From NCBI RefSeq assembly GCF_003172895.1, contig NZ_QGKL01000021.1, positions 62,001 through 126,000 on the forward strand: DNA of 64,000 bases. Reading direction: 5' to 3'. The notes beneath the pieces were generated by a model. That model was given only the letters and a program-made list of their open reading frames with translations. It had not been told where the DNA came from and ran no database searches. A program made the translations under genes and the position numbers. Shown piece after piece: positions 53,005-56,733 of the stretch; position 1 is the first letter of the stretch; every line of letters starts with the position of its first letter. The stretch comes from Leucothrix arctica. Lineage in GTDB: Bacteria > Pseudomonadota > Gammaproteobacteria > Thiotrichales > Thiotrichaceae.

Positions 53005-54456
53005 ATGAAATTTAGTAAGACGTTAAAGACATTAGTCTGCGCAGCACTAGTTATAATACCATTGGGGAGTGCGGCAGCAGCAGCGCCAATCTATCCAAAC
53101 TTACCACCTGAAATACAGCAATCATTGCGTGACAAAGGTATGTCTGCGTGGGGAATGAGTGCACATGTTCAGGCGATTGGCTCACCTAGACCGCTGATAT
53201 CACACAACGCTAAAATCGCAAGAAATCCAGCATCGGTGATGAAACTACTCACCTCTTATGTAGCACTTGGTGTGTTAGGACCAAACTACCGTTGGCCAAT
53301 TGAAATTTCCACAACAGGCACACTTCAAGCCGGTGTACTTTCTGGAAATGTTTATATCAAAGGTTATGGTGCGCCAGACTTTGATACAAAAGGTTTGCGT
53401 GAAATGTTGAGCCAGTTACGACGTAAAGGCATTCACACAATCCGTGGCCGTTTGATATTTGATGATACCTTCTTTAATGGACCTAAGATTGACCCAGGTG
53501 CATTTGACGGAAAGCCATACAATACTTATAACGCACAACCTGACGCTCTAATGTTTAATGAGCGACGTACTACCTTTGCTGCCTACCGTAAGGGCAACAA
53601 AATCAGTGTGACAACCGCTACTCCAGCACATAACCTACGTATTGTTAATCGTATCAAGCTTGCGAAGAAAACATGCCGTGTGAATACTAGCGTCAAGCGT
53701 GGTCAAGGTGATGCAGTTACTGTGACATTTACAGGTTACCTTGCAAGACGTTGCCGTAAACGTGGTTACACCATGGTCGTTACTGACCCTGCAAATACTA
53801 TGTACTCTGCGATCAACAAAATTTGGACTAAAGAATTAAAAGGCCGCATGGACACACAGTTTATGGTTGGCGCAACACCACCAGCTGCACGTCCAATACA
53901 CGTTCATTACTCAAAGACTTTAGCTCAGTTGTTACCAACGGTCGTTAAAGATAGTAATAATGTAATGGCTCGTCAGCTACTACGTTCGGTTGGCGCAAAA
54001 CGTTTTGGCGCACCCGCTACACCTAGAAAAGGTGCTGAAGCTGTTGATGATTACCTACGTAGTCAAGGTCTAGACTTTCCTGAGCTACGGATTGAAAATG
54101 GCTCTGGTTTAAGCCGCTACGCTCGTATTAGTACAGAAAATATCTCACGTCTACTTAGTAAGGCTTACTATGGTAAGCACCGCGATGTGTGGATGAGCTC
54201 AATGGCAATCGCAGGTGTTGACGGTACAATGAAAGGCCGTTTAAAGAAGTCAGCCGTTCGCGGTCGTGGTTTCTTTAAAACAGGTACATTACGTGACGTA
54301 CGCGGTATTGCAGGTTATGTAAATGCAGCGGATGGCCGTACTTATGTTGTATCTATTTTACACAATGATCCTGCTGCCCGTAGCCGTGGACGTAAAATTC
54401 ATGATAATTTTATTGAGTGGGTATTCTGGGGCAAGCAAATGGCCAAAGGCTATTAA
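53005..54456 (+). CDS. dacB: D-alanyl-D-alanine carboxypeptidase/endopeptidase (PBP4 family)
   Basis: A periplasmic peptidoglycan hydrolase of 483 residues. A signal peptide (about 1-27) is followed by the catalytic SxxK (ASVMK, Ser77 and Lys80), SxN (SNN) and KTG (FFKTGTLRDV) motifs. The domain between the SxxK and SxN motifs is of PBP4 type. It ends 36 bp before the three-gene ion-channel cassette on the same strand, so cell-wall cleavage and the channel may be linked; this is inference. Confidence 0.95.
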   Translation: MKFSKTLKTLVCAALVIIPLGSAAAAAPIYPNLPPEIQQSLRDKGMSAWGMSAHVQAIGSPRPLISHNAKIARNPASVMKLLTSYVALGVLGPNYRWPIEISTTGTLQAGVLSGNVYIKGYGAPDFDTKGLREMLSQLRRKGIHTIRGRLIFDDTFFNGPKIDPGAFDGKPYNTYNAQPDALMFNERRTTFAAYRKGNKISVTTATPAHNLRIVNRIKLAKKTCRVNTSVKRGQGDAVTVTFTGYLARRCRKRGYTMVVTDPANTMYSAINKIWTKELKGRMDTQFMVGATPPAARPIHVHYSKTLAQLLPTVVKDSNNVMARQLLRSVGAKRFGAPATPRKGAEAVDDYLRSQGLDFPELRIENGSGLSRYARISTENISRLLSKAYYGKHRDVWMSSMAIAGVDGTMKGRLKKSAVRGRGFFKTGTLRDVRGIAGYVNAADGRTYVVSILHNDPAARSRGRKIHDNFIEWVFWGKQMAKGY

Positions 54457-54492: not shown

Positions 54493-55506
54493 GTGACAGA
54501 AAACACGGTATCCAAGGCAATGCCAAATGTTATTAGTGCGCGTCAATACCCCCTAGAGCAGGCGTTTACACAGCCCCTGCTTCTGGGCGCTATTATTGCG
54601 TTAGTTCCAGGTATATTGATCCAGATGTTCATCGATCCAGCAGATATGAACCGAGTGGCGAAGATACTGTTTGGTAACTGGATATCGCCACTGATTTTGT
54701 GGTTCTTCGTGAGCAGTCTCATGCATTTATGGATGAAGGCTGGCCGCTTAACCCGAGAGTGTAAGCAAACACAGCTTTTGTCTGAACGTGCATTACCGAG
54801 TGTACTCGCTGCATCTACCGGTGAAACACGTGGGCATGGTTTGTGGGCGGTTCTCCGTCAGCAAGTGACTCCTAAACAGGTTTCTAGCGACAATTTGTTA
54901 ATGAACCGTTTACAGCTTTTTCTCAGTCAATCTCATCCGAGTGATGAGATTGATGAAGCATTCGGTATCACCGAGCGTGAGTATATGCGTGGTTCATTCG
55001 CGCTTTCACGCTTTATGGTATGGGCTATTCCTATTTTGGGCTTCATTGGCACAGTATGGGGAATCAGTAATGGTATTGCGCATTTCTCTGATGCGATGAC
55101 ATCGACTAGTTCAGTGACGGATGTATCGTCAATGCTTAAAGACAACCTACCACTCGTGACCAATTCACTAGCGACAGCGTTTGATACAACTCTACTAGCA
55201 TTGTTGTTAAGCGTACCGTTGATGATGGTTATGATTTGGTTAGAGAAGCGTGAAGAAGCCTATCTGATTCAAATAGATCAGCAGTGGTTTCATGACATTA
55301 AGCCAAAACTCATTCAAACAGCAGGCATGGGTTTAGCGCACTCTGGCGATTCGTCAGATGGTACAAACATGGCACCTGTCCAGTCAGTTGCAAATGAAAT
55401 AAAAATGCTCAGCACCCAAGTGGGCGCGCTGCAAGAAACGATGGAAGATCTGTACGAAATGATTTTCGAATCACGACTAAGCGACTACAAGAAGCATGGC
55501 AAGTAG
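54493..55506 (+). CDS. MotA/TolQ/ExbB-type proton-channel protein, channel subunit of an unassigned system
   Basis: A 337-residue inner-membrane protein. Helices are predicted at about 28-47, 63-80, 174-193 and 227-250. The last two carry the family core, PILGFIGTVWGISNG and LATAFDTTLLALLLSVPLM. The C-terminus has a short helical tail (about 290-330). The first codon is GTG; the next in-frame ATG is ten codons in. The next gene overlaps by 11 bp. It does not look like the standard ExbB, TolQ or MotA, and no flagellar, Tol-Pal or TonB gene is near. Confidence 0.88.
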   Translation: MTENTVSKAMPNVISARQYPLEQAFTQPLLLGAIIALVPGILIQMFIDPADMNRVAKILFGNWISPLILWFFVSSLMHLWMKAGRLTRECKQTQLLSERALPSVLAASTGETRGHGLWAVLRQQVTPKQVSSDNLLMNRLQLFLSQSHPSDEIDEAFGITEREYMRGSFALSRFMVWAIPILGFIGTVWGISNGIAHFSDAMTSTSSVTDVSSMLKDNLPLVTNSLATAFDTTLLALLLSVPLMMVMIWLEKREEAYLIQIDQQWFHDIKPKLIQTAGMGLAHSGDSSDGTNMAPVQSVANEIKMLSTQVGALQETMEDLYEMIFESRLSDYKKHGK

Positions 55507-56110
55507 AGCGTCACGTTACGCCCGTTATCTACCTCAAGAAAAGTTAGAAATAAGCTTATTTCCATTCTTGAGCATCTTCCTGTGCGTGATGGGAGTGCTA
55601 TCGTTTATCAATATACTAAGCAGTGTATCAACACCGCAAAAAGTGCAGTTGACGATGGATTTGGAACAAGGTTATAAAGTGGCCTTTCAAATATTCACTC
55701 TGCCTGAAGGGATAATCGTCGCGCCTTCTATAAAGCGTTTAACCGACCTTCAGGGCGTAGTGGACGATGACTCAAAAGCAATACTGGCGATGATCATTTT
55801 GAGGCGTAAGATGATGATTGAGCAGTTAGCATTGGGTCAAACAGAAGCTAACTTTGGTGCCACATCACCTGACTCTGAAGATATTCGTTTATGGATGTAT
55901 GAGATTCGTCAGATAAACGAAATGGCGTTGCGAGCCAACTTCCTTTACGAAGAGTTTGTATTGTTTGGTGTGTACCCTAACGGTGGGCAAGCGTATCAAA
56001 AGGTGCGTGATGTCATGAACAGTTCGGGTGATGCTCAGAGTATTAGTGTCGGTCTTGAGCCTTTGGACTCGAATTGGTCCTTGAGTTTGCATAATCAGGA
56101 GGAGCCATGA
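55496..56110 (+). CDS. ExbD/TolR-like membrane protein lacking the conserved aspartate
   Basis: A 204-residue protein with one N-terminal membrane helix (about 20-41) and a periplasmic remainder. The segment LFPFLSIFLCVMGVL lines up with the ExbD/TolR pattern P-F/L-I/L-D, but the proton-carrying Asp is Ser26 here. The periplasmic part (about 50-200) is mostly helical and not recognised. Its start overlaps the channel gene by 11 bp and its end overlaps the next gene (ATGA), so all three are co-translated. It is probably a partner subunit rather than an independent protein. Confidence 0.75.
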   Translation: MASRASRYARYLPQEKLEISLFPFLSIFLCVMGVLSFINILSSVSTPQKVQLTMDLEQGYKVAFQIFTLPEGIIVAPSIKRLTDLQGVVDDDSKAILAMIILRRKMMIEQLALGQTEANFGATSPDSEDIRLWMYEIRQINEMALRANFLYEEFVLFGVYPNGGQAYQKVRDVMNSSGDAQSISVGLEPLDSNWSLSLHNQEEP

Positions 56111-56733
56111 AGAACCTGATTAACGTAGACTCATTGACAGACATCGTGTCCAATTCTGTTGGTATCTTGATTATCTTTGCCGTGATCAATCTGATTCATG
56201 ACAACAATAAGACCTATGAACTTGAGATCCCAATTGAACACCAAACCGATCTAAAGCCGGCTTACATCATTAGTAAGGATGATCGTCTTTTGGTCATGAA
56301 TACAGATGAAGTATTCGCAAGTGCAGCGCAACAAGCAAGTAACGGTGCTGCAGCCAATAAGCGTATATTCGATTTAAAGTACAAAGGACTCTATGCTCAA
56401 GTAGAAGATGAGCAGGGCATCGCGTTCCATGCGCGTGTGACAGATGACTGGCCTAAATTCACTGAGCTTGAAACTACCGGTAGTGAATTACAAAAACAGT
56501 TAAACAAGATCGACCCTAAAGAGTACTTCGCTTATTTTTTCGTCTACGATGAAACAAATTTAGGCAGTACTGCTGGTAGCGGCTACGAAAGTTTTCGTGT
56601 TGCCAGAAAGTACCTAAAGGCACGTCGAATCAAGTCAGGCTGGCAGCCTGTTAATGCTGAGTCCCCAGCCAGCATCTGTAGTTATAGCGATTGCCGTTAT
56701 CTACCGTCATTTCTCGCTTCTGAAGCGCCATAG
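56107..56733 (+). CDS. ExbD/TolR-like membrane protein with conserved aspartate
   Basis: A 208-residue protein with one helix right at the N-terminus, NVDSLTDIVSNSVGILIIFAV. Asp12, just before or within the helix, takes the place of the ExbD/TolR/MotB proton-relay Asp. A periplasmic domain of unknown fold follows, with a Cys-containing C-terminus (CSYSDCRYL) that may form a disulfide. An AGGAGG ribosome site ends 5 nt before the ATG. It shares its general plan, but not its sequence, with the gene before it. Confidence 0.75.
   Translation: MKNLINVDSLTDIVSNSVGILIIFAVINLIHDNNKTYELEIPIEHQTDLKPAYIISKDDRLLVMNTDEVFASAAQQASNGAAANKRIFDLKYKGLYAQVEDEQGIAFHARVTDDWPKFTELETTGSELQKQLNKIDPKEYFAYFFVYDETNLGSTAGSGYESFRVARKYLKARRIKSGWQPVNAESPASICSYSDCRYLPSFLASEAP

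Follow-up and report, generated by a model that had tools for sequence, protein, structure and literature searches.

A conserved ring-axle gene cassette in Thiotrichales carries two unequal ExbD-like proteins, only one of which keeps the axle aspartate

Ion-driven motors of the 5:2 type combine a ring of five MotA/TolQ/ExbB-type subunits with an axle of two subunits carrying one Asp per chain, and in the model of the review PMC9389320 each ion transit produces a 36-degree step, with ten ions per turn and a ten-fold rotational symmetry that the review considers "almost certain" to be universal. Cassettes with two axle genes are already known. AglRQS, the gliding motor of Myxococcus xanthus, joins one ring gene to two different TolR/MotB-type genes, and all of its genes are needed for sporulation according to PMC3858216. 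In PMC9389320, AglQ and AglS are both described with a conserved Asp, and whether they form hetero- or homodimers is said not to be known. The TPH-vWA and tolR pairs set out in PMC12204202 likewise place a tolQ-like gene beside an unequal axle pair, with a TPR gene nearby; its passages on vWA pairs describe a conserved Asp pair, one per vWA monomer, and mention no Asp-less member. Here we analyse a stretch of 64,000 nucleotides from Leucothrix arctica (assembly GCF_003172895.1, contig NZ_QGKL01000021.1, positions 62,001 to 126,000 of the forward strand; "the window"), in which three overlapping genes at 54493-56733 code for a ring protein (A) and for two proteins with one helix each (B and C). 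Unlike AglRQS, only C carries the Asp. Searches of open-access PMC papers, among them PMC9389320, PMC3858216, PMC12505986, PMC12204202 and PMC10374538, turned up no report of an Asp-less axle partner. The features concerned are as follows.

54493-55506, plus strand: A, ring/channel subunit of the MotA/TolQ/ExbB type (GTG start, 337 residues; PF01618)
55051-55053, plus strand: codon of A Thr187, the threonine of GTVWG in the third transmembrane helix (TM3), invariant in 25 of 25 rows
55183-55191, plus strand: codons of A Asp231-Thr232-Thr233 in the TM4 motif AFDTT; Asp231 is specific to asymmetric-axle rings among those compared
55496-56110, plus strand: B, first axle-like subunit (204 residues), one N-terminal helix, Ser26 at the Asp position, related to C
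55571-55573, plus strand: codon AGC of B Ser26, at the ExbD/TolR Asp column
56107-56733, plus strand: C, second axle-like subunit (208 residues); Asp12 lies in the single N-terminal helix, and the domain that follows contains C191 and C196
56140-56142, plus strand: codon GAC of C Asp12, at the ExbD/TolR Asp column
53005-54456, plus strand: dacB (PBP4; PBP4 equivalog match), a neighbour and probably no defining part

The unequal axle pair proved to be a fixed property of the family. A was matched in 29 of the 63 genomes of the order, both in the window's genus (g1, which includes Leucothrix pacifica) and in other genera such as Cocleimonas. After setting aside G036 (a fragment of A at a contig end) and G057 (a weak match to a different ring, L034), 27 genomes contributed 28 cassettes, G005 having two copies (L020 and L035) on different contigs, through either duplication or a mixed bin. 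B and C yielded 28 rows each, those of C representing 27 distinct cassettes, since a single cassette accounts for both L020 and L051, while L009 stops at a contig end before C. Ser26, which closes the motif LFPFLS (B residues 21-26), is present in all 28 B rows (codon AGC in 9, AGT in 19), and Asp12, which lies within SLTDIVSNSVGILIIFAV (C residues 9-26), in all 28 C rows (GAC in 5, GAT in 23). In the 26-row alignments SLFPFLSIF is invariant in B, where nearly the whole helix S20-N39 is unchanged, and DSLTDI is invariant in C. The order A-B was found in all 28 cassettes and A-B-C in 27; the gene overlaps are not kept in every relative, some having a gap between A and B. A MAG (metagenome-assembled genome) labelled Leucothrix mucor (L040) was placed in genus g4.

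The same arrangement recurs in Cyanobacteria. Searching plasmids with A by tblastn returned two records, Microcystis NIES-2481 p1 and Anabaena cylindrica pANACY.03, both with the same gene order and the same Ser/Asp split: the first small protein reads DLFPFLSIL or ELFPFLSVL and the second LDSFLDIMTNTVG or LDSFLDILTNTVG. Their B serine codons, TCG and TCA, belong to a different class from AGC and AGT, so the serine either survived a switch from one codon class to the other or arose on two occasions. Because the split is invariant across the family and returns in a second phylum, it is more than chance, and local drift at Ser26 was rejected on the grounds of invariance, silent codon change and the TCN serine codons of the cyanobacterial homologues. 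A preliminary description of the window, which regarded Asp in homologues of the first protein as fatal to the idea of an asymmetric stator, is upheld on this point: none of the 28 Thiotrichales B rows and neither of the two cyanobacterial proteins has Asp there, although other ring lineages do have Asp in both axle proteins.

B and C lie outside the known profiles. Neither matched Pfam, NCBIfam or PADLOC at loose limits, and the ExbD/TolR profile PF02472 matched neither the window's proteins nor any of 26 members of each, with only scattered weak matches to Pfam families other than ExbD. Their register was read from an ExbD hidden Markov model (HMM) based on the 25 motif-bearing ExbD/TolR proteins that 31 loci of this and related genomes yielded. 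In a search of ten sequences with filters off, this HMM matched cyanobacterial B with best-domain E values of 9.6e-8 (L093) and 8.4e-4 (L092), placing PFLS on P-L-I-D and thus Ser on the Asp column; the remaining eight, among them B and C of the window, fell below threshold. L093 B also matched PF02472 at E 0.0036, under the gathering score. Profiles of B and C that included the cyanobacterial rows were compared with hhalign; the alignment spanned 164 columns at E 1.6e-6 and set Ser26 against Asp12, and none of ten control pairings (two reversed, eight with other families) did better than E 0.085. C aligned with ExbD at E 0.007, Asp on Asp. In Microcystis, BLASTP of B against C recovered a common C-terminal part of 42 residues (E 5e-11). 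From the profile alignment and this shared part, B and C are most simply read as paralogues. Both are axle-like in having one N-terminal helix after a short stretch, in lying beside a ring gene and in aligning with ExbD. The conserved helix Asp that characterizes every ExbD/TolR copy is present in C and absent from B, and the proline of the P-x-x-D/S axle motif is missing from C. On profile and Asp alike, B was not filed as an ExbD member. The C-terminal cysteines C191 and C196 of C (window 56677-56694) are invariant in the 26-row alignment, which suggests a disulphide; this part is absent from the cyanobacterial homologues.

A itself is a member of the MotA_ExbB family (PF01618; E 1.7e-7, 31.5 bits against a cut-off of 22.9). 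Kyte-Doolittle hydropathy marked four hydrophobic stretches in A, of which two are marginal; B and C each have a single one close to the N-terminus. In its coordinates, its overlaps (11 bp for A/B, 4 bp as ATGA for B/C), its motifs and the 36 bp between the end of dacB (54456) and the start of A, the locus is as the preliminary description had it. The likeness to ExbBD and TolQR lies in the TM3 threonine of GTVWG and in an axle with P-x-x-D/S followed by one helix; the differences are the two axle genes, the Asp-less B, the ring Asp231 and the want of a PF02472 match for B and C. Both GFIGTVWGIS in TM3 and AFDTT in TM4 are invariant in a 25-row family alignment, and Thr187 aligns with the GTVWG threonine of ExbB and TolQ, both in PDB ExbB chains (a weak match) and in the host's own TolQ/ExbB proteins. 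Against the PDB, profile and sequence searches with A found only weak ExbB or ZorA matches. The host genome holds five PF01618 genes (contigs C33, C29 with two, C14 with A, and C7) and three PF02472 genes, on C29 and C33, with none on C14. The fifth MotA_ExbB gene (L005, C7:15734-15997) lies in a 332-residue frame on a contig with no PF02472 match.

Residue 231 separates the rings. It is Asp in all 34 rings from asymmetric cassettes (27 Thiotrichales including the window, two cyanobacterial and five gammaproteobacterial) and Asn or Tyr in all 25 others, among which the axle type is established for nine, every one with Asp in both axle proteins (L074, L081-L086, L088 and L090). The residues aligned to it in the host's own TolQ/ExbB proteins are Ile, Ile and Lys. 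A class-wide search of 369 genomes with the A profile matched 35 at E 1e-8, the window's own included. Five of the loci hold related but more distant gammaproteobacterial cassettes whose first axle protein has, in place of the Ser, Glu (L064, L065, L066 and L068, the first two being near-copies) or Ala (L063), a register read by eye from the motif and not by profile; the second reads ALADILAN with Asp where visible (it was not visible for L063). An FGE-sulfatase gene (PF03781) stands beside a Glu/Asp cassette (L095, 10968-12548) and beside a ring cassette with a visible axle Asp (L072, 40-747), so that two ring lineages have this neighbour in common. The D/D cassette L074 fits the TPH-vWA kind, since its first axle protein matches VWA_2 (E 1.3e-6); here, in contrast, the first axle protein has Ser, Glu or Ala, and B and C have no vWA match. 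In a tree of 49 rings that included ExbB/TolQ and 15 of the 27 Thiotrichales rows, the asymmetric rings grouped with support 95/96, and with residue 231 masked, no outgroup and the host's own four rings and L075 removed they occupied one side of a branch (96/84); both trees carried a long-branch warning. The 34 asymmetric rings thus probably form one lineage.

Partners of the cassette emerged from gene content. In six Cocleimonas-side loci (L044, L048, L049, L050, L053 and L056) A-B-C is followed, within one operon, by two genes, T (about 540 residues, with weak TPR matches in L053) and X (about 605 residues). In the host, T (503 residues, TPR-like) and X (599 residues) are adjacent at a second locus (contig C38:73632-76948), and both have a single hydrophobic segment within the first quarter of the chain; the bulk of both would be periplasmic. 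Neither host protein matched Pfam at E 0.01, and X had no PDB match. Of the 63 genomes of the order, 23 have T and 22 have X, all of them A-positive (23 and 22 of 29); among the 34 A-negative genomes none has either. Within g2 and g3, the two genera of patchy occurrence, X follows A in every one of the 18 genomes, and in G028 the T-X pair (C1:3869496-3872859) ends about 9 kb before C-B-A. By this measure the T/X pair is, from gene distribution, a better functional link than dacB. In genus g4 (L041-L043), two small proteins with weak coiled-coil-like matches follow A-B-C in place of T-X. The 16 genomes of genus g8 gave no A match except the weak one to the different ring of G057. Ahead of the host T-X pair, in the region L130:3845-10951, lie three genes that we take to be PilT/PilU-like ATPases, a possible connection to surface movement. 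A scan for promoters and terminators around the cassette gave no clear signal (12 promoter-like against 9.2 expected, 3 terminator-like against 3.4).

We are inclined, by a modest balance of confidence over doubt, to read A-B-C as an ion-driven motor of the 5:2 type that drives T and X and whose axle is a B:C heterodimer bearing a single carboxylate. The predicted elements of this reading are the heterodimer, the stoichiometry, the rotation, the coupling ion, the transfer of force to T and X, the topology of these two proteins and the task. A would form a pentameric ring around a B:C axle whose sole classic carboxylate would be Asp12 of C, B having Ser26 instead; ions would pass mainly by Asp12, aided by ring Thr187, Asp231, Thr232 and Thr233, and the rotation of ring against axle would be passed on to T and X. 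If B and C share one axle, the one Asp per axle chain seen in 5:2 motors is lacking, and because a single axle acid would remain, the simplest expectation is that a turn takes five ions in steps of 72 degrees, as against ten in steps of 36. The preliminary description spoke of only one active proton site, an inference complicated by Asp231, which might itself act as a second site or adjust the pKa. The task would be an envelope-spanning job, possibly surface motility; a link to gliding, a behaviour that one paper title ascribes to Thiothrix, is a guess. A fuller proposition, in which a motor lineage of two phyla has an obligate heterodimeric one-carboxylate axle, a compensating five-Asp ring, about five ions per turn in 72-degree steps and an unnamed A-B-C-T-X envelope machine, strikes us as possible but doubtful.

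Several results weigh against the one-carboxylate heterodimer. The mixed axle is inferred from sequence, and B or C could form homodimers. The folds of B and C are unconfirmed, because the B model is poor and Foldseek of the C model gave no significant match: as a monomer, B was modelled at a pLDDT (predicted local distance difference test) score of 58, too poor for a fold search, and the AlphaFold monomer of C at 71, with its helix region below 50, had a best PDB match of E 0.1 and no ExbD or TolR among the 50 matches listed. Profile searches of the PDB gave chance-level matches for B and none for C. Window B and C alone are not significant against ExbD, the link running through cyanobacterial homologues and profiles: with Thiotrichales rows alone the B-C alignment is non-significant (E 0.14), and B against ExbD is weak and non-significant (E 0.09) although in the same register. 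Since the asymmetric rings look like one long-branched lineage, the Ser/Asp split and the ring Asp may stem from a single event; of the 25 comparison rings, nine are of established axle type. Outside the order, the Ser/Asp kind was not found in the sampled Pseudomonadota: class-wide (369 genomes) the C profile, and phylum-wide (398 genomes) a cross-phylum C profile, matched the window's own genome alone, so this kind seems to be scarce in the rest of the phylum, although the first-pass filter of these searches may hide distant copies. Finally, the co-occurrence with A (Fisher p = 3e-11 for X, 5e-12 for T) takes no account of shared descent, and neither T nor X was found in five of the A-positive genomes: G023 (58% complete), G024 (90%), G025 (84%), G036 (83%, A fragment) and G057 (different ring), of which G024 and G025 speak against strict linkage.

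Among the alternatives, the one that survives best is a C:C homodimeric axle with two Asp, as in ExbBD and TolQR, with B an accessory beside the ring (a regulator, plug or tether) whose helix lies outside the pore and has lost the acid; we think this improbable, though not greatly so. B does keep an ExbD-like helix without the acid, and according to PMC12204202 TolA/TonB-type helices bind the edge of such motors. Against this, the profile alignment of B and C covers most of both proteins, the Microcystis pair shares a C-terminal part, the B helix is almost wholly invariant, and other ring lineages have unequal axle pairs with Asp in both.

Somewhat less probable still is that the acid moved from axle to ring, so that five copies of Asp231 would form the main ion site, with Ser26 and Asp12 as partners and possibly Na+ as the ion. 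The residue-231 pattern (34 of 34 asymmetric rings against 0 of 25 others) fits this, and Thr187, Thr232 and Thr233 may resemble the sodium site of PomA, for which PMC10374538 describes three ring threonines. Asp231, however, lies two residues before Thr233 and may for that reason not face the pore, and the TT pair also occurs in one of the host's own ExbB-like proteins.

That the cassette is a Zorya-like anti-phage defence motor seems to us very unlikely. A does resemble ZorA in matching its profiles weakly (E 1.4e-5), and the cyanobacterial cassettes are plasmid-borne, with a helicase-related gene close to one and type III-B CRISPR genes close to the other; but the cassette is found in all seven genomes of genus g1, always after dacB, as fits a resident set better than a defence island, T and X co-occur with A, and the two axle genes differ from ZorAB in number, B and C having no PADLOC match in a scan that did not extend to neighbouring genes. 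The surroundings of L092 and L093 are themselves defence-island-like, one with a helicase-related gene before and DUF559 and NUDIX genes after it, the other following type III-B CRISPR genes. In plasmids, tblastn of the Microcystis A protein gave one further weak match, in Sagittula (E 4e-5); a phage search with the same protein gave none, and in viral contigs no match to the B profile or the Microcystis C protein was confirmed.

Least probable is a PBP4-linked cell-wall motor, as first proposed from dacB: the gene adjoins A in seven of seven genus g1 genomes, which upholds the adjacency, but was found in no other compared locus, including 16 further GTDB-contig loci (7 with about 6 kb upstream), T and X accompany A across a wider range of genomes, and because the link is limited to the Leucothrix genus, a cell-wall role drawn from dacB alone was rejected.

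On the reading we favour, a mixed one-acid axle, if real, would break both the two-fold symmetry of the axle and the ten-fold symmetry of the motor. With this native Ser/Asp pair one could ask if a single axle acid is enough or two are required, what number of ions each turn consumes, and whether the ring can supply an acid, whilst T and X would offer a handle on what the motor drives.

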